A DNA stretch of 23,830 bases. It comes from a virus. The DNA lies in the IMG/VR virus record IMGVR_UViG_3300031840_000185, positions 1-23,830 of that record. One strand, written 5' to 3'. The notes beneath the pieces were generated by a model that was given only the letters and a program-made list of their open reading frames with translations, searched no databases and was not told the origin of the DNA. A program made the position numbers and the translations under genes. Positions 999-15,974 of this stretch are shown here, one piece after another (position 1 is the first letter of the stretch; every line of letters begins with the position of its first letter).

Positions 999-1655
999 TT
1001 ATTTTAATTCTACCCTTTTGTTTTGTTTTTGTTGCCATAACTCTAAATTCTTTCTTGTACACGCTTTACACCAGCTTGTTTTACCACCAATGCCTTGTGG
1101 TCTTTTACTAAACTCTTGTGCAATCTTTCTTTCACCACATTTAGTGCAGCATTTACTTACCAGCTGTCCATAGCTATCAAACTCTGGTCTTGATTTGCTT
1201 GGTTTCTCACGATCTAATAATTTATCTACTTGCTTGTTGTTTTGTATATCTATATGACAACTAACGCATATATGACTTTTTGCACCCCAGTTTTCGTTAT
1301 CACTTGCAAATCCACGTGTCTTTCTATTGCAACGCAAACAACGTTTCTTTTTTAACTTACCGTGGTAATCAAATTCAGCTTCAATAATATCTAATGTTGT
1401 AAATGTTTCTTGCATTGTCTTTAGTAAGTCCTTTGGTGGTTTTGTTTTAAATCTACGTCTAACACGTTCTGGTAAGCAATATAAACCATATTCCAAGTCT
1501 TGATCTAACGCATATTCCAAGCAATCTATGTTAACTGGACATTGTTTACATATTGTGTGGGTTTCCCAATATTGTTTATCGGTACGTTTATCTGTACCGG
1601 GGAAGAATAGATTTATCGGCATACTGTTACATAACGCCCTGTTTTGCCACGTCAT
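999..1655 (-). CDS. WhiB-like regulator fused to two zinc-ribbon modules
   Basis: A 218-residue protein. Residues 1-70 are a WhiB domain: C9 plus the C36-x2-C39-x5-C45 cluster (ICKQCPVNIDC) would hold a [4Fe-4S] cluster, followed by LEYAL and an ERVRRRF basic end. The family's G[VI]WGG turn is changed to GLYCL (57-61), adding a fifth Cys. WhiB proteins are transcription regulators that bind the primary sigma factor in Actinobacteria. Residues about 92-202 hold two similar modules, each starting EFD-x2-G-x-L and carrying two CxxC pairs (C106/C109 with C130/C133; C170/C173 with C196/C199). These look like zinc ribbons that could bind DNA or RNA polymerase. Usual phage WhiB proteins are about 80-110 residues, so the extension is unusual. 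The start ATG lacks a good ribosome site. Tandem operator-like dyads lie upstream. Confidence 0.8.
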   Translation of the reverse strand: MTWQNRALCNSMPINLFFPGTDKRTDKQYWETHTICKQCPVNIDCLEYALDQDLEYGLYCLPERVRRRFKTKPPKDLLKTMQETFTTLDIIEAEFDYHGKLKKKRCLRCNRKTRGFASDNENWGAKSHICVSCHIDIQNNKQVDKLLDREKPSKSRPEFDSYGQLVSKCCTKCGERKIAQEFSKRPQGIGGKTSWCKACTRKNLELWQQKQNKRVELK

Positions 1656-4466: not shown

Positions 4467-4710
4467 TATTATCTATAAATAAATATTTACTTGCTTTTTC
4501 TTTTAATGGAAACCACGCTTGTTTTTCTGTTTTTCTTTGCATACCGTCAAAAACTTTATTTGTTTTATAAACGTGTTTTTTCAATAACTCGTTAAATTCG
4601 TCAAAATCTTTCTGGTTTCTAAACTTAAATTTTGCAATAATAAATGGTTCTTCTTGCTTTTTATTATTATATTCTGGTAATTCTTTATAATGTTCTTCCC
4701 AATTATTCAT
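4456..4710 (-). CDS. Small conserved-type protein upstream of the glycosyltransferase
   Basis: I take the ATG at 4710 (84 residues), which overlaps the preceding stop by 8 nt; longer in-frame starts up to 4809 would run deep inside the preceding gene and are unlikely. The core FKFRNQKDFDEF (28-39) is a strand followed by a helix, and KQAWFPLKEKASKYLFID closes the protein. Small proteins with an F-[RK]-x-x-x-D-F-x-x-F helix and a WFP or WYP end often sit beside modification genes in marine phages, but I cannot name the family. Coupling to the glycosyltransferase suggests a shared role, for example as a subunit or DNA adaptor (inference). Confidence 0.7.
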   Translation of the reverse strand: MNNWEEHYKELPEYNNKKQEEPFIIAKFKFRNQKDFDEFNELLKKHVYKTNKVFDGMQRKTEKQAWFPLKEKASKYLFIDNNET

Positions 4711-5179
4711 TTTGCCATTTCGCAATCCATTTGTCCGTATCTTCCCAACACCATTGGCTACTACTCCACGGTTTCCAATAATTATCCCTTGTGTGCATAT
4801 CTTGTACAAGTAATGCAGCTACTTGAATATTATAACGTGGAATAAACTGTGCATAGGTATTTCCAACTGGGTAATCCCAGTAAGGTATATCGTGTTTTTC
4901 TTTTACCCAACCCCACGTTCTTGGTATTGCTTGAAATAAGCCACTATCTTGATCTTGGTAGCGATATGCGTCTGCTTTATTGCGACTTTCACACCACATT
5001 ACTTTTACAGCTGTTTCTATGTTTTTTTCATCAAAATGTTCTACAAGTAATGTTGCATATTGATAACAAGTTTCTGGTACATAATTATCGCAATCAGTTA
5101 AATTTATAACTTCATCTGCAACGCCATAACCAAAATTATTTACAAGTAAAGCGTAAATTAATATGCACTTAGTTATCAA
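4703..5179 (-). CDS. Secreted lysozyme/transglycosylase-like protein (TTG start)
   Basis: A 158-residue protein starting at TTG (5179), which overlaps the upstream TGA. Residues 1-21 form a Sec signal peptide (K4, hydrophobic 6-20, cleavage near GVA-DE). The mature part has the lysozyme-like/SLT signature: MWCESR (61-66) with the likely catalytic E64, then SGLFQAIPRTW (79-89). The C-terminus is Trp-rich (KPWSSSQWCW). Four Cys (30, 38, 63, 144) could make disulfides, fitting an exported protein. It should cleave the glycan strand of peptidoglycan. It lies in the replication operon, far from the amidase/holin lysis pair, so it may act early on the wall or release host wall material, or it may be a virion protein. 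The role is uncertain. Confidence 0.75.
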   Translation of the reverse strand: MITKCILIYALLVNNFGYGVADEVINLTDCDNYVPETCYQYATLLVEHFDEKNIETAVKVMWCESRNKADAYRYQDQDSGLFQAIPRTWGWVKEKHDIPYWDYPVGNTYAQFIPRYNIQVAALLVQDMHTRDNYWKPWSSSQWCWEDTDKWIAKWQNE

Positions 5180-8189: not shown

Positions 8190-8411
8190 TTAGAAAGTTT
8201 CTTTCGGCTTGTACTGTTCTAGAGCGTGTTGCATTACTGTTATAAAACTTGTTAAAAATGCTACACCTACAAGCTGTATTATTTCTGCGTCAATAATACC
8301 TGTACTGTTAGCTAACCACAATGAAATAGCTGATTGCAAACCAGTTCTAAATGCTTTTGCAAACATAAATTTCCAGTACGCTTTCCAATCTTTTTTATTT
8401 ACTTTACTCAA
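8190..8411 (-). CDS. Holin (r1t-like; TTG start)
   Basis: A 73-residue protein. The start is TTG at 8411 with AAGGAAAGG 6 nt upstream, inside the end of the amidase gene (8-nt overlap). It has a charged N-terminus (KKDWKAYWKFMFAKAFRT), two membrane segments (about 22-38 and 44-62, the second containing VGVAFLTSFITVM) and a polar C-terminal tail. Size, topology and position right after the endolysin match the r1t-type holins common in actinobacterial phages. It would form inner-membrane lesions that end the infection and release the endolysin. Confidence 0.8.
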   Translation of the reverse strand: MSKVNKKDWKAYWKFMFAKAFRTGLQSAISLWLANSTGIIDAEIIQLVGVAFLTSFITVMQHALEQYKPKETF

Positions 8412-9186
8412 TGGTAACCTTTCCTTTTTTAATTTTAGCTCTATTAACTTCTACCAACTTTGCATAAGTCATATTGCCAACAATACCGTCTGGTTTTAAT
8501 TTATATTTCTTTTGAAATAAAACCACAGCTGCTAAAGTTTTTCCACCAAAATCACCGTCTATTTGTAATTGTGTTTTGTTTATCTTGTTAAGCATTATTT
8601 GTATTTCTTCTACTTGGCTACCACTATCGCCTTTTTTAATGAGCATTGATCTAGTTACTTCTTGTACAACTTCTTGTGCTTTTGTTTCTTCTGGCACTAT
8701 GGTTAATCTATTTTCAATCCATTTACTCCAATTATCACCCGGACACGTAGTAGATTTAAAACTTCTATGTGGTCTAATATCGCCACCGACTTCTTTCCAT
8801 AGTTCTTTTACTGTCATTACAGCTTCTTTACTTGGCATATCATCTGGTTTAGATCCACCAAGCCAACACACAGCTACGTAATGCTTATTGTTATAGTTTA
8901 TTTCTTGTCTGTTGTTGCCACCTTGTGCTGCCGATCTATTTCCAAAACCTCTAGCTTCGTATAAATTACCACTATCACCTACACAAAAATTATATGCTAT
9001 ATCGTTCCAACCCCGGTCGTTTTGATGTAGTGCCTGTATCTGTCGTACTTGTGCCATTTCTTCATCTACGCTTAATGCTTTTGGATAAGCTGACCAATGT
9101 ACAACTAAACCTTTTACTTCGCCTAATTTACTAAATCTTGATTTATTGGGTTTTGCACCCCACATTTCTCTAGTTATTATCTTCAT
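8404..9186 (-). CDS. N-acetylmuramoyl-L-alanine amidase endolysin
   Basis: A 260-residue protein with two domains. Residues 1-160 are an Amidase_2/PGRP domain: zinc ligands H30 (VVHWSA), H140 (IRPHRS) and C148 (TTCPGD), with Y65 in WNDIAYNF as the expected catalytic Tyr. Residues about 180-245 are a PG_binding_1 domain (LIKKGDSGSQVEEIQ ... IDGDFGGKT ... FQKKYKLKPDGIVG). It cuts the bond between muramic acid and the stem peptide. There is no signal peptide, so it depends on the holin gene that overlaps its end. It starts one base after the metallophosphoesterase stop. Confidence 0.92.
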   Translation of the reverse strand: MKIITREMWGAKPNKSRFSKLGEVKGLVVHWSAYPKALSVDEEMAQVRQIQALHQNDRGWNDIAYNFCVGDSGNLYEARGFGNRSAAQGGNNRQEINYNNKHYVAVCWLGGSKPDDMPSKEAVMTVKELWKEVGGDIRPHRSFKSTTCPGDNWSKWIENRLTIVPEETKAQEVVQEVTRSMLIKKGDSGSQVEEIQIMLNKINKTQLQIDGDFGGKTLAAVVLFQKKYKLKPDGIVGNMTYAKLVEVNRAKIKKGKVTIE

Positions 9187-11105: not shown

Positions 11106-11285
11106 TTATTTTCTAAAATTTATTGTTGCAAACCAAACACCAAAACTTATTAGGATCATAATACCTACAACGTCTTTAGACGTTCCAGTCAAGAGAAAAT
11201 AAGAAATCGCAAAACCCAAAATGGTGAACGTCTGTGCTGCTGTTTCTCTAAGTATCGCTATTATGCCGTTATATATTTTTTTCAT
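11106..11285 (-). CDS. Small two-segment membrane protein
   Basis: A 59-residue ORF whose ATG overlaps the TAA of the 570-residue surface-protein gene (TAATG), implying coupled translation. Two hydrophobic segments are clear: about 20-33 (FTILGFAISYFLL) and 39-54 (VVGIMILISFGVWFA), joined by a short TGTSKD turn, with Lys at both ends. It could be a second holin or antiholin, or a membrane partner of the exported protein. A 7-bp inverted repeat (AACGTCT-TT-AGACGTT, 11169-11184) lies within the coding sequence. Confidence 0.7.
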   Translation of the reverse strand: MKKIYNGIIAILRETAAQTFTILGFAISYFLLTGTSKDVVGIMILISFGVWFATINFRK

Positions 11286-12997
11286 TAAAATCTTCTAGTT
11301 ATTGGTGTAGCAATAATCTGGCCAACAATAATTACCGGGACAACTGTTTTAGCTGCTTGTGTCTTTACTGCTTGTGGCATATCACTACCAATATCTGATA
11401 ATACTACACCAGACAAATCAATATCAGTTAGTTGTCCTAATGGATTTTGTATAAATTCTTCTATACCTATTTCAACGATTACGTTTTGTATTCCATAATC
11501 TTCTACATCTGCGTTTTCTGTTGCACGTTCTACATACTCTTGTACAGCTGTTGCAATAGTTTTATCTTCTATAGATTGTTTTGCAATTATTACAACGTCA
11601 TTAGTTTCTTGTACACCAAGCACTTCAGCAACAACTTCTTTTTCTTCTTCACTAAGTTCTGCAACTGTTTCAGGTTTAGTTACTTCTACTACAACAGCTT
11701 GTACAATTTGTTTTGTTTCTTCAGTAGCTTTATCTAAATTTTGTACACTTACTTTTGCTACTTCTTTTACAACTTCTATTTTTTCTTCTACCGGTAATGC
11801 TTGAACAGCTTCAACTATTTCTTTTTCGGTAGTATCTTCTGTAATTTCAACAACTTGTATTTTTAATTCAACTTGTTTTATTACTTCTTCTTGTTCTTCA
11901 TCTGATAAATCTTCTAGTGGTGTTTCGTTATTTCTTCTACCCACTTCTTCTTGTTCGTCTGGAATAATATCCACAATTTCATCTTCTTCAAAAACCTCTT
12001 TAATAGGTTCTGTATCTTCTTCTTCATATAAATCTTCCTGTTCTATAATTATTATTTCTGGTAGATCAAGTACAATAACTTCTTCTTCTATTTCGTATTG
12101 TTCTAAATCTTGTTCTTGTATTTCTTGTATTACGTCAATAAGTTCCTGTATTTCTTCTAATTCTTCATCTGATAATTTTTCAACATCAACATCTTTTAAT
12201 ATTGATTGTTCTAATTCTTTTTGTATCGCTGCTTCTTTTTCAGCTTCAATGCGTTCAGCTTCTTCTCTGTCTGCTCTCTCTTTGTTAGTTTCGTATATAC
12301 CAGTTTCTAAAAAATTTAATTCTTCTTCTGTTGGAGGTATTGTTGTAGTCGTTGTAGTAGTAGTAGTTGTTGTAGTTTCTGGTACAACGATAGGTTCTTT
12401 ACAATCACCATTCTGATAACCAAACCACTCTTTGCTTTCAATAGCTGTAAGATATTCTTTATATGAAAGCGGATTGTTTGGGTGCTCACACCCATTTTTA
12501 TCCCAAGCCAAGTACGTAGTAATACCATCTTCAACGACTTCTTCTGCTTTGGGTAGCGTAGTTGTTGTCGTACTAGATGTCGTTGTAGTAGGTATAAAAA
12601 CATAATTATATAATACACTTTGTACAGGAGTAAAGTCGCTAGTTGTACCATTAGTATCGTGAAATGCTTTTACCTTTGCATATATATTTTGATTATCTAC
12701 AGACAATTCGTTGTATAAATACTCTGCTGTAAATGTATAACTTTGCCAAGACAATGCTTCTGTAAAACCAAATTTTGTTTGTACTGATTTATCATCAGCA
12801 GTTTCAGTAAGTCCTATATAAACTATGTAGTATTCAGGTGGGTTATCTTCATAGCCATCACTTTCCTGCCAACTAACTGTAATACTTCCATCATTATTTA
12901 ATGTATTAGTAATACCATAAGGTGTTTGTGTTTCTGTATGGTAAGCCATTACAGGTAAAGGTATCAATAAAAAAATAGCAAATAATACCCTTAGCAT
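11285..12997 (-). CDS. Exported Thr-linker, Glu-rich surface protein of unknown function
   Basis: A 570-residue protein. Residues 1-18 are a Sec signal peptide ending VMA. Residues about 20-132 form a fibronectin-III-like beta domain (ITVSWQESDG, YYIVYIGLTE, IYAKVKAFHD). A Thr/Ser linker (137-147) leads to a small domain (150-205) with two Cys (170, 199), and a second Thr run (208-219) leads to a long acidic helical part. There, LSDEELEE (275), LSDEEQEE (364) and LSEEEKEV (448) recur at about 85-90 residues, marking diverged repeats. The C-terminus has a short hydrophobic stretch (552-565) and ends TRRF, like a membrane anchor. Such Thr-linked exported proteins are typical of host surfaces. 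Placed between tail and lysis genes, it could be a surface decoy, a superinfection-exclusion factor or a wall-associated factor; none is proven. Confidence 0.75.
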   Translation of the reverse strand: MLRVLFAIFLLIPLPVMAYHTETQTPYGITNTLNNDGSITVSWQESDGYEDNPPEYYIVYIGLTETADDKSVQTKFGFTEALSWQSYTFTAEYLYNELSVDNQNIYAKVKAFHDTNGTTSDFTPVQSVLYNYVFIPTTTTSSTTTTTLPKAEEVVEDGITTYLAWDKNGCEHPNNPLSYKEYLTAIESKEWFGYQNGDCKEPIVVPETTTTTTTTTTTTIPPTEEELNFLETGIYETNKERADREEAERIEAEKEAAIQKELEQSILKDVDVEKLSDEELEEIQELIDVIQEIQEQDLEQYEIEEEVIVLDLPEIIIIEQEDLYEEEDTEPIKEVFEEDEIVDIIPDEQEEVGRRNNETPLEDLSDEEQEEVIKQVELKIQVVEITEDTTEKEIVEAVQALPVEEKIEVVKEVAKVSVQNLDKATEETKQIVQAVVVEVTKPETVAELSEEEKEVVAEVLGVQETNDVVIIAKQSIEDKTIATAVQEYVERATENADVEDYGIQNVIVEIGIEEFIQNPLGQLTDIDLSGVVLSDIGSDMPQAVKTQAAKTVVPVIIVGQIIATPITRRF

Positions 12998-13389
12998 TAT
13001 CTACAACAATTTGCTTCTATCCACGCAAGTCTAGTTTGTAGTTCTCTAATTGTATTCAAATCTTGGTCTTGATTTATAAATTGTGTTTCAAGACGAGTAA
13101 TTTGTTTTTTGATTTCGTCCCATTCCCATTTTTCAATTTGAACATATTGATTAGTGTCATTAGTCATTTCTAATTTCTGCACTTTTTCAAACAGAACAGC
13201 AATATCCCCTTGTACAAATGTACTTTCTTTTAACATTTCAAAATCTACTTCTACTTGGTTCATTCTGTTATCAATGCCTTTAAGTGTATCAACAATATCA
13301 GTAGCAGTAGATAAACCTGCACCAATAGAACCCATTAACGCTATAGCTGTTGCAACTAAGCCTATGTTATCTTTTATTTTTGCAATCAT
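12997..13389 (-). CDS. Membrane-anchored coiled-coil protein
   Basis: A 130-residue protein. Residues 8-33 (IGLVATAIALMGSIGAGLSTA and following) are a Gly/Ala-rich membrane segment. The rest is mostly coiled coil (IDNRMNQVEVDFEMLKES, IKKQITRLETQ, TIRELQTRLAWIEA) ending in two Cys. The stop overlaps the ATG of the surface protein, and the start overlaps the upstream small gene by 4 nt (ATGA). It may be a class III-type holin, or may scaffold the exported protein at the membrane. No family is recognised. Confidence 0.7.
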   Translation of the reverse strand: MIAKIKDNIGLVATAIALMGSIGAGLSTATDIVDTLKGIDNRMNQVEVDFEMLKESTFVQGDIAVLFEKVQKLEMTNDTNQYVQIEKWEWDEIKKQITRLETQFINQDQDLNTIRELQTRLAWIEANCCR

Positions 13390-14358: not shown

Positions 14359-14877
14359 TTACTTCTTTAAACCATATAATGTAAATGTTCCACTTGCTAT
14401 ATTGCCACTATCAAATCCAAAAAATAATCCGTCGTGTGCCTCTTGAACTGTATAAACATTTCCACCCATACTACCTCTTGTACTTGCACTTGCATTAATT
14501 GCAGAATTTTCTACTGTGATAAAACTGTACTCACTAGCATTAGCAAAATTAAATAAGTAAATAATTGCATTATTTTGTTCTCCTGTACCTGTACCTGCAC
14601 CTGTTAAAACATCAAAAGCAGTTCTATTTGTTCCACTTACATTCTGAAATGCAGCGTCTGCTCTTAATACTTTAAAAGCTCTATCATAATTTGCTGTTGA
14701 TTGTGCAGTACCTGAAACTGTTACTCTTGTGATTGGGTTTACTGCGTCTGTACTAGGAACATAATTATTTATTCTTACCATATACACATCATAAGTGCTA
14801 TCAATACCTGTTAAAGTTACACTTGCTACTGCTGATGTAACTGTTGTTTCTTGAATTTTTATTAAGCTACCTGCCAT
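14359..14877 (-). CDS. Beta-rich tail/receptor-binding candidate, copy 3
   Basis: A 172-residue protein made of beta strands with Ser/Thr/Asn/Gly-rich loops, a jelly-roll or sandwich look. It opens SLIKIQETTVTS, has ITGID-type and YDVYMVRINNY strands, a central YLFNFANASEYSFITVE strand pair, and ends FTLYGLKK. The same opening, centre and ending are found in the two genes upstream, so the three form a diverged family. The start overlaps the stop of copy 2 by one base. Placement after the fibre-like gene suggests a distal tail, host-contact role (inference). Confidence 0.65.
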   Translation of the reverse strand: MAGSLIKIQETTVTSAVASVTLTGIDSTYDVYMVRINNYVPSTDAVNPITRVTVSGTAQSTANYDRAFKVLRADAAFQNVSGTNRTAFDVLTGAGTGTGEQNNAIIYLFNFANASEYSFITVENSAINASASTRGSMGGNVYTVQEAHDGLFFGFDSGNIASGTFTLYGLKK

Positions 14878-15407
14878 TATTTAACTCCATATACTGATAC
14901 TGTTAAATCAAAATTTACACTTGCATTACTACTATGAATATTAAAACCTGTTATTTGTTCAGCTACTTTATGTACTCCAATTTGTTTTGCACCTCTAAAT
15001 CTATTACTTGCAGTATCATATCCACCTGCACCCTGTCCAATCATAAATGTATAACTTGAACTGTCATTGGGATTAAAGACATAATTAGCACTTCCTGCAT
15101 TTTCATAATTACCAAGTAAAACTGTTCCATACATATAACCTAAACTTGTAAATCTATCACTATCAAAAGCTGCTTCAGCTTTCATTGTTAATCTTGCACT
15201 ATCATATTCACTATCAGTAATTACACTTCCACCACTATCTATAAATCTATGCCTTAAGTCAATTACTCCTGTACCTGTTGTTCTGTAATCAGCAGTTTTT
15301 TCTGTAATTTTATAAACTTTGTATTTATCAGTAAAGCAATCTGTAATATCTAGTGAATTAACATCTGTCCCTGTTACTTTTTTAACTAATTCTAAACTTC
15401 CTATCAT
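14877..15407 (-). CDS. Beta-rich tail/receptor-binding candidate, copy 2
   Basis: A 176-residue paralogue of its two neighbours: opening SLELVKKVTGTDVNS, a YKVYKITEK strand, central NYVFNPNDSSSYTFMIGQ (110-127) and end SVYGVK. Identity to the other copies is low outside these points, especially in the loops, as expected for proteins under pressure at the host contact surface. It starts 3 nt after copy 1 ends, with no clear ribosome site, so translational coupling is likely. Confidence 0.65.
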   Translation of the reverse strand: MIGSLELVKKVTGTDVNSLDITDCFTDKYKVYKITEKTADYRTTGTGVIDLRHRFIDSGGSVITDSEYDSARLTMKAEAAFDSDRFTSLGYMYGTVLLGNYENAGSANYVFNPNDSSSYTFMIGQGAGGYDTASNRFRGAKQIGVHKVAEQITGFNIHSSNASVNFDLTVSVYGVK

Positions 15408-15410
15408 TAA

Positions 15411-15974
15411 CTATTCCTTAATTCCATATAAAGACATAGTTGCTGTCATATTGTTACTTCCATTATTCATAAAAAATTTAATTCTATCTACTGTGCTTGT
15501 TTGTGGCATAACACCACTTCCAAATCTCATTTCTAAACTTGTTGTCCAATCAGAAGCATCTGCAACTGCTTGATAAGTACAAAATGAATATTTACTACTA
15601 TTACCTAAGTTATAAAAATATATATATCCACTATCTCTATCATTAGAACTACCAATAGCATTAGTAAAAAATGGGCTATCTGCACCTGTGTTTCCACTTT
15701 CACTAAATGTACCTGCTGAATTTCCATTTTGTATTGCAATTTGGTATATATCAGCAGTTTCCTCTACTCCACTTTCAAAAAAGTGTAATCTCATAGTATC
15801 TCCTGATGCTAATGATTGAGTTACTGTGTATGTAAAAAAATGAACATTATATGTACTTTCTTTTAGATTTGTAAATGTTACTGAATTAACTCCACTAGGT
15901 GTTTTTGTTTCAATTAATTCTAATTTACCTAAGTCTGCACCACTTAGCCCAAATCTAGCTGCACCTAATGGCAT
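15411..15974 (-). CDS. Beta-rich tail/receptor-binding candidate, copy 1
   Basis: A 187-residue member of the triplet with a strong AGGAG site. It has about 15 extra residues at the N-terminus (AARFGLSGADLG), then LELIETKTPSGVNSVTF, YIYFYNLGNSSKYSFCTYQ in the centre and SLYGIKE at the end. The N-terminal extension could attach it to the tail. This gene alone holds the window's only two GCATC/GATGC sites (15556-15560 and 15805-15809), so its codon-pair use differs from the rest; recent acquisition or recombination is possible. Confidence 0.65.
   Translation of the reverse strand: MPLGAARFGLSGADLGKLELIETKTPSGVNSVTFTNLKESTYNVHFFTYTVTQSLASGDTMRLHFFESGVEETADIYQIAIQNGNSAGTFSESGNTGADSPFFTNAIGSSNDRDSGYIYFYNLGNSSKYSFCTYQAVADASDWTTSLEMRFGSGVMPQTSTVDRIKFFMNNGSNNMTATMSLYGIKE

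Follow-up and report, generated by a model that had tools for sequence, protein, structure and literature searches.

What role could a large, apparently exported surface protein, translationally coupled to a small membrane protein, play in a phage? The window, which is the whole stretch of 23,830 nucleotides analysed here (IMG/VR virus record IMGVR_UViG_3300031840_000185, positions 1 to 23,830), encodes such a protein, designated P1, together with a partner of 59 residues, designated P2. In the preliminary description, the design of P1 was called very unusual for a lytic phage, and superinfection exclusion, host-surface mimicry and a wall-disrupting device were suggested as roles. The design turned out not to be rare in these phages, but merely unannotated. 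From the analysis presented below we infer that, among the three roles, the best fit is obtained for superinfection exclusion or surface remodelling, while wall disruption is weakened. The features of the window that are relevant here are the following, (-) denoting the minus strand.

11285-12997 (-): P1, predicted exported modular surface protein, 570 aa (reading frame and translation)
12944-12997 (-): P1 residues 1-18, predicted signal peptide with a signal-peptidase-I-like site and no lipobox
12599-12940 (-): P1 residues 20-133, head, FN3-fold domain (AF2 model, VIA, Foldseek)
12557-12589 (-): P1 residues 137-147, Thr/Ser linker 1 (sequence)
12398-12556 (-): P1 residues 148-200, two-Cys module with C170 and C199 (sequence)
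12341-12376 (-): P1 residues 208-219, Thr linker 2 (sequence)
11753-12310 (-): P1 residues 230-415, acidic stalk of variable length (sequence)
11372-11752 (-): P1 residues 416-542, conserved helical tail (family comparison and model)
11288-11347 (-): P1 residues 551-570, C-terminal hydrophobic segment and RR (sequence)
11106-11285 (-): P2, 59 aa, two predicted membrane segments, start overlapping the P1 stop (TAATG)
12997-13389 (-): P3, N-terminal membrane segment and coiled coil, TAATG-coupled to P1
13573-13764 (-): m13764, small coiled coil and C-terminal membrane segment, adjoining P1 in most relatives
14359-15974 (-): three paralogous fibre-like genes, upstream of P1 (genomic context)
8404-9186 (-): endolysin, Amidase_2 and PG_binding_1 (domain matches)
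8190-8411 (-): holin, r1t-like (phrog_443; close homologue in L038)
999-1655 (-): WhiB-domain protein, 218 aa, a clue to the host (domain match)

All parts of P1 that had been listed before (signal peptide, FN3-like domain, Thr linkers, two-Cys module, acidic region and RR end) were found on the minus strand, and the TAATG-coupled protein of 59 residues with two membrane segments is P2. The N-terminal hydrophobic segment of P1 is closed by the signal-peptidase-I-like site after VMA, residues 230-540 have a net charge of -73 with 31% Asp and Glu, and the C-terminus consists of the hydrophobic segment TVVPVIIVGQIIATPIT followed by RRF. TAATG occurs at both junctions of the gene, upstream from P3 to P1 and downstream from P1 to P2. 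For the family, whose members range from about 490 to 1000 aa, 57 distinct full-length P1 proteins were compared, derived from the 61 closed ORFs in the loci plus the window. A hydrophobic C-terminus with at least two K/R within the last eight residues was identified in all 57, and a strongly hydrophobic N-terminus, at the threshold used, in 56. The dN/dS ratios were 0.12 and 0.29 for the P1 head (two pairs), 0.21-0.43 for the P1 tail (three pairs) and 0.02-0.13 for P2 (three pairs), indicating purifying selection on all three. Together with the terminal features, these ratios imply that the layout of P1 exceeds chance. A C-x28-C spacing is present in 31 of the 57 proteins, and either C-x28-C or C-x11-C in 43. 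No lipobox-like motif was found when the first 45 residues of the 54 P1 proteins with an adjacent P2 were scanned, nor was an LPXTG-like motif seen before the C-terminal hydrophobic segment when the window P1 was read directly. In many P1 proteins this segment contains R, Q or P, so that by inspection it would be a weak transmembrane anchor.

Searches of the libraries gave little for either protein. In Pfam, P1 matched nothing but low-complexity models, and these weakly; it matched no model in NCBIfam or in PADLOC, which covers host defence rather than exclusion by phages, and a single family in PHROGs, weakly and with unknown function; a profile search against the PDB returned only a weak mucin match. 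For P2, no convincing match was obtained in Pfam, PHROGs or NCBIfam, and none of 19 P2 members matched a holin family in Pfam or PHROGs. No INPHARED record was matched by tblastn with P1, the PA14-type P1 or a P2. A structure search of BFVD returned FN3 matches, among them phage FN3-domain tail proteins; the matches include proteins of uncultured phages, one of them named SUEL lectin, which may be relatives. No paper describing the pair of P1 and P2 was found in the literature searches.

The two genes were found to travel together. One scan of IMG/VR with P1 as query identified 142 relatives (80 retained as loci), and one scan with P2 identified at least 580 (80 likewise retained); 79 of the latter were read as the P2-first set (L066 being set apart, since it was already in the first set), and about 10 contigs are common to both sets. 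A P2 homologue is present in 78 of the 80 P1 loci, the other two contigs ending at or just past P1. P1 and P2 overlap by 1, 4, 7 or 8 bases at 75 of these 78 junctions; a small gene is inserted at two of the others, and at the third P1 is split over two frames. In the reverse direction, an ORF lies at the expected place upstream of P2 in 73 of 79 loci; its C-terminus is hydrophobic in 72, and it matches the window P1 by blastp (E<=1e-3) in 71. Altogether, where the ORF upstream of P2 could be read, it has a P1-type tail in 72 of 73 cases, the one clear exception being L189, also seen as L041, with a small gene inserted between P1 and P2. As judged from gene order and similarity, P1 and P2 form a widespread, previously unlabelled pair.

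A surface complex had been proposed that comprised P1, P2 and the product of the membrane coiled-coil gene directly before P1. The partnership of P1 and P2 is upheld by their pairing in both search directions and their joint absence from some relatives, described below, and the two proteins may well form a complex. The membrane coiled-coil gene is indeed present, as P3 (12997-13389), but a homologue was identified in only one of the 80 P1 relatives, which places P3 outside the conserved unit. The layout of P3 is i-spanin-like. Its only copy, 89% identical, is in L003, which suggests a joint transfer of P3 and the P1 head.

The AlphaFold model of full-length P1 was poor (pLDDT 58, 27 sequences), with a confident part at residues 20-133 (pLDDT about 85). 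This part matched FN3 with a VIA Z of 11.9 (101 residues aligned, 2.4 A) and a Foldseek E of 3e-4, and the head of the window P1 is accordingly modelled as a seven-strand FN3 beta sandwich; the sequence itself did not reach Pfam fn3. The model confidence for the acidic stalk and the C-terminus was low, hence no fold is claimed for either. A separate model of a second head type, found in L030 and further members (pLDDT 78, 11 sequences), resembles a CBM-like jelly roll, with a Foldseek E of 2e-5 to CBM16 and CBM29 as best VIA match (Z 10.1, 121 residues, 3.1 A). In the P1 of L190, a PA14 domain was detected at 27.8 bits (Pfam cut-off 24), and the linkers are rich in Pro and Glu in place of Thr, while the heads of L162 and L193 comprise several tandem FN3-like units, as judged by eye. 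FN3, CBM-like and PA14 are all binding folds, a shared fold by itself showing no ligand.

These heads appear to be exchanged while the tail and P2 stay constant. L011 and L069 are 97% identical over the last 150 residues of P1 and 100% in P2, but only 27% over the first 130 residues; conversely, the window and L003 share 96% in the P1 head and 46% in the tail. Over 54 proteins, the P2 distance correlates with the distance of the P1 tail at a rho of 0.87 and with that of the head at 0.44, a difference which may be explained in part by the adjacency of tail and P2. The head and the tail of P1 thus evolve apart, as far as these comparisons indicate.

In the window, P1 and P2 lie between the fibre genes and the lysis genes. 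P1 is located downstream of fibre-like paralogues here and in many relatives; in some others it comes after endolysin and holin instead. An endolysin-cluster gene was identified in 76 of the 80 P1 loci, an r1t-type holin cluster in 64 and a second holin type in 8, and among the 59 P2-first loci that extend 2.5 kb or more downstream, an endolysin and a holin-like gene are present, up- or downstream, in 48 each. Three types of phages at least carry the pair. Those of lineage a have about 29 kb, WhiB and siphovirus-like tail genes, and those of lineage b have about 44 kb and other structural genes and are devoid of WhiB; one lineage-b record of 58,316 bases repeats its first 30 bases at 43,859. 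The L190 type is represented by a contig of 85.5 kb which encodes WhiB and Hsp20 and, after P2, a CHAP-domain protein. WhiB was found in 5 of the 40 records searched. In all these types, P1 and P2 are placed by gene content in the late region, beside endolysin and holin genes, and their expression is likely to be late as well.

Several further observations concern these neighbouring genes. The fibre-like paralogues (14359-15974, minus strand) are beta-rich, and relatives such as L024, L049 and L053 contain two tandem triplets. Two PHROG hemolysin families match 3 and 2 of 19 members of the m13764 family, and any likeness to XhlA/hemolysin would be weak (best E 0.03-0.04). At 4703-5179 on the minus strand of the window, a protein with a hydrophobic N-terminus followed by an SLT transglycosylase domain would be a second, separately exported wall enzyme. 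In the slot of the endolysin (8404-9186 in the window), DUF5675 (PF18925) is present in L016 (11414-12166), L030 (11507-12283) and L131 (1153-1911); there it is joined to PG_binding_1 in place of Amidase_2 and therefore probably represents the catalytic moiety of an endolysin. The WhiB domain of the window (999-1655) has a long Cys-containing C-terminal extension.

Relatives were also fetched by structural genes and then scored for the P1 tail and P2. Of 80 lineage-a loci, 12 extend as far as the endolysin; 7 of these have both the P1 tail and P2, the other 5 neither. Of 40 lineage-b loci, 22 extend that far, 21 with both and 1 with neither. Two lineage-b loci have at least 6 kb downstream and no endolysin: L290 ends just past P1, and L319 is devoid of P1 and P2. 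All six records without the pair still contain the endolysin together with a holin-like and an m13764-like gene, the last two assigned partly by eye, and in one of them, L234, endolysin and holin share 84-85% identity with their counterparts in the window. Rows without P1 fall in at least two places of a 16-row tree, the supported group L234/L238/L239 (97/99) and the distant pair L279/L280; L249, the contig of which ends 1.3 kb downstream, was left out of these rows. The joint presence or absence implies that gain or loss affects P1 and P2 as one unit, and the retention of endolysin and holin without them that they are accessory rather than core lysis machinery. The pair seems dispensable for lysis in these phages. 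A core role in lysis was considered and is weakened by these relatives, as is the wall-disrupting device proposed in the preliminary description.

The probable hosts were approached through bacterial genomes. For an Actinomycetota MAG, G001, 41 relatives of 0.6-1.1 Mb were identified in a family search. One of these, G078 (about 1.1 Mb), contains a contig of 29,719 bases which is syntenic with the window phage, with identities of 87% for the capsid, 75% for the endolysin, 84% for the holin, 71% for the WhiB protein and 71% for P2; P1 is cut by the contig ends, and further WhiB genes are present in G078 outside this contig. PMC7771536 describes a Ca. Actinomarinales single-cell phage of 29 kb with 35.5% G+C and a double-length WhiB. 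Phage size, G+C (35.3-35.5% for the window-type phage) and double-length WhiB agree, and from this the hosts are probably Ca. Actinomarinales.

Thr tracts occur in 34 of the 42 genomes of the probable host family, and the linker style of P1 is thus that of the host. A host membrane protein with Thr linkers was identified in two of these genomes. At L116 (G050:C3), a sortase-like ORF, assigned by eye, and a protein with many membrane segments, an extracellular domain and two poly-Thr linkers lie side by side (1-1281 and 1288-2754), probably as a host gene pair, and the latter protein is also present in G001:C29. The likeness to host surface proteins, which had been offered as mimicry, holds for this style only. 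Outside phage contigs, the family search gave weak matches only, which were read as host Thr-linker proteins. A scan of genome contigs gave six loci; a single contig, G001:C30, was read through and turned out to be phage DNA. P2 was found in one of 396 sampled genomes of the phylum, namely G001, on contigs C30 and C36, of which C30 alone was read through. An origin of the P1 tail and P2 from host genes was rejected on these grounds.

The computational results establish the architecture of P1, the pairing with P2, the swapping of heads, the position in the lysis region, the joint presence or absence and the link to the host, whereas the topology, a complex, late expression, the ligand of the head and any masking of receptors are proposals. 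The preferred reading, which is held tentatively, is that P1 and P2 form an accessory late surface-display module of phages infecting planktonic actinobacteria and mask receptors, for superinfection exclusion and for protection of the progeny from debris. P1 would be exported through its signal peptide, and its C-terminal hydrophobic segment, with RR inside, would hold it in the cytoplasmic membrane together with the co-translated P2. Stalk and linkers could carry the exchangeable head (FN3, CBM-like or PA14) through the wall to the outside, where it would bind and mask glycans or proteins that serve as receptors of the own and of related phages. Late superinfection would thereby be stopped, and released progeny would be kept off the lysing cell and its debris, as by T5 Llp, but by another route. 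The swapping of binding-fold heads on a constant tail and P2 counts for masking, as does the presence or absence of the pair as a unit while the lysis genes stay. The conserved termini of P1, the closer correlation of P2 with the tail than with the head and, in the window, the location of P1 downstream of the fibre genes, which recalls that of Llp next to pb5, point the same way. A co-variation of head type with fibre type is predicted by masking. A first analysis was positive for two of the three fibre genes; a stricter test, using gene order and shuffles within lineage, was positive for one of the three slots. Such co-variation does not appear robust in these sequences, which counts against receptor masking. 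So does a late timing, which would be less useful for exclusion than an early one, and so does the location of P1 after endolysin and holin rather than fibres in some relatives. The C-terminal segment, by inspection a weak anchor, and the lack of a PADLOC match also count against it. Somewhat more doubtful is the wider proposal of a new and very common class of surface conversion in planktonic actinobacteria: many unrelated phages would have the stalk and its partner (P1 tail and P2) in common and interchange lectin-like heads on it, so that infected cells, coated with receptors made by the phage, select the phages that adsorb.

The main competitor, which we consider rather unlikely, makes the pair a lysis accessory, either a wall-spanning tether or a device for lysis timing, in hosts with an extra outer layer. 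P1 would link membrane and surface like a u-spanin minus the lipid anchor, and P2, with its two membrane segments and charged ends, would be a holin- or antiholin-like partner. The position beside endolysin (76/80 P1 loci; 48/59 P2 loci) and holin-like genes (48/59), the CHAP-domain protein after P2 in the L190 type and the export signal and C-terminal hydrophobic segment, which resemble the topology of T1 gp11 as given in PMC6139136, all speak for it. Against it stand the records (5 of 12 in lineage a, 1 of 22 in lineage b) which keep endolysin and a holin-like gene without the pair, the absence of a lipobox from all 54 P1 scanned, the match of P2 to no holin family, and the swappable binding heads, which a spanin does not need. 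A Cys pair, moreover, is present in 43 of 57 P1, whereas periplasmic Cys is given for 0 of 58 u-spanins in that source. An adhesin is improbable: P1 would attach infected cells or membrane fragments to other host cells or to particles and thereby free the progeny beside new hosts. The plan of variable binding head, Thr/Pro-rich linkers, stalk and membrane anchor in the proteins read, the CBM-like and PA14 heads and hosts that would be dilute plankton are in line with this, but adhesion alone leaves the joint conservation of P1 with P2 unexplained. It is very improbable that P1 is a fibre or another particle surface protein with a misleading signal-like N-terminus. P1 is close to the fibre genes in the window, and phage tail proteins among the BFVD matches also have FN3 domains, but the signal-like N-terminus (56/57) and the hydrophobic C-terminus with its RR/RK end (57/57) are conserved among the distinct P1, P1 is paired with a protein of two membrane segments, and it is present in phages with differing structural genes.

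Under the preferred receptor-masking reading, the pair would be a concrete candidate for superinfection exclusion in a presumed monoderm, with P2 at no fewer than 580 places in IMG/VR. If it were a lysis factor instead, it would represent a spanin-like device outside Gram-negatives, and in either case a large family that now lacks annotation would gain a function. Among marine bacteria, the probable hosts rank with the smallest and most common, and phage effects on their surface are little understood.

The pair would belong with phage-encoded host-surface proteins. None of the libraries and annotated phage collections searched names P1. The surface proteins of the host with Thr linkers share the signal-like N-terminus, the extracellular domain and the poly-Thr linkers; they have many membrane segments after the linker, whereas P1 has one terminal segment, a tail found only in phages and, in the window, no LPXTG-type signal. 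With the phage FN3-domain tail proteins of BFVD, the FN3 fold is common, but P1 is predicted to be exported, membrane anchored and paired with P2. The u-spanins of the T1 gp11 type, as described in PMC6139136, have an N-terminal export signal, a long extracytoplasmic part and a C-terminal hydrophobic segment like P1, the gene of which is also in or beside the lysis cassette. P1 differs from them by the missing lipobox, by Cys pairs in most members, by its binding-fold heads, by the absence of P1 and P2 from some relatives keeping the lysis genes, and by a host presumed to be monoderm. In outline it resembles a u-spanin, but it departs from this class in two traits for which it was examined, having no lipobox and, in most members, a pair of Cys. 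For T5 Llp, PMC9586334 describes an exported envelope protein encoded by the phage, the gene of which adjoins pb5; Llp is an early protein, and it has been proposed to block adsorption and the loss of progeny to debris. Like Llp and Cor, P1 would be a phage-encoded exported envelope protein; its gene lies downstream of fibre-like genes in the window and many relatives, but after endolysin and holin in others. Llp, in contrast, is a small Gram-negative outer-membrane lipoprotein, while P1 (570 aa in the window) lacks a lipobox, has a stalk and a head that can be exchanged, and has P2 as its constant partner. By analogy, P1 may be likened to Llp in its proposed function, yet it is not an Llp.
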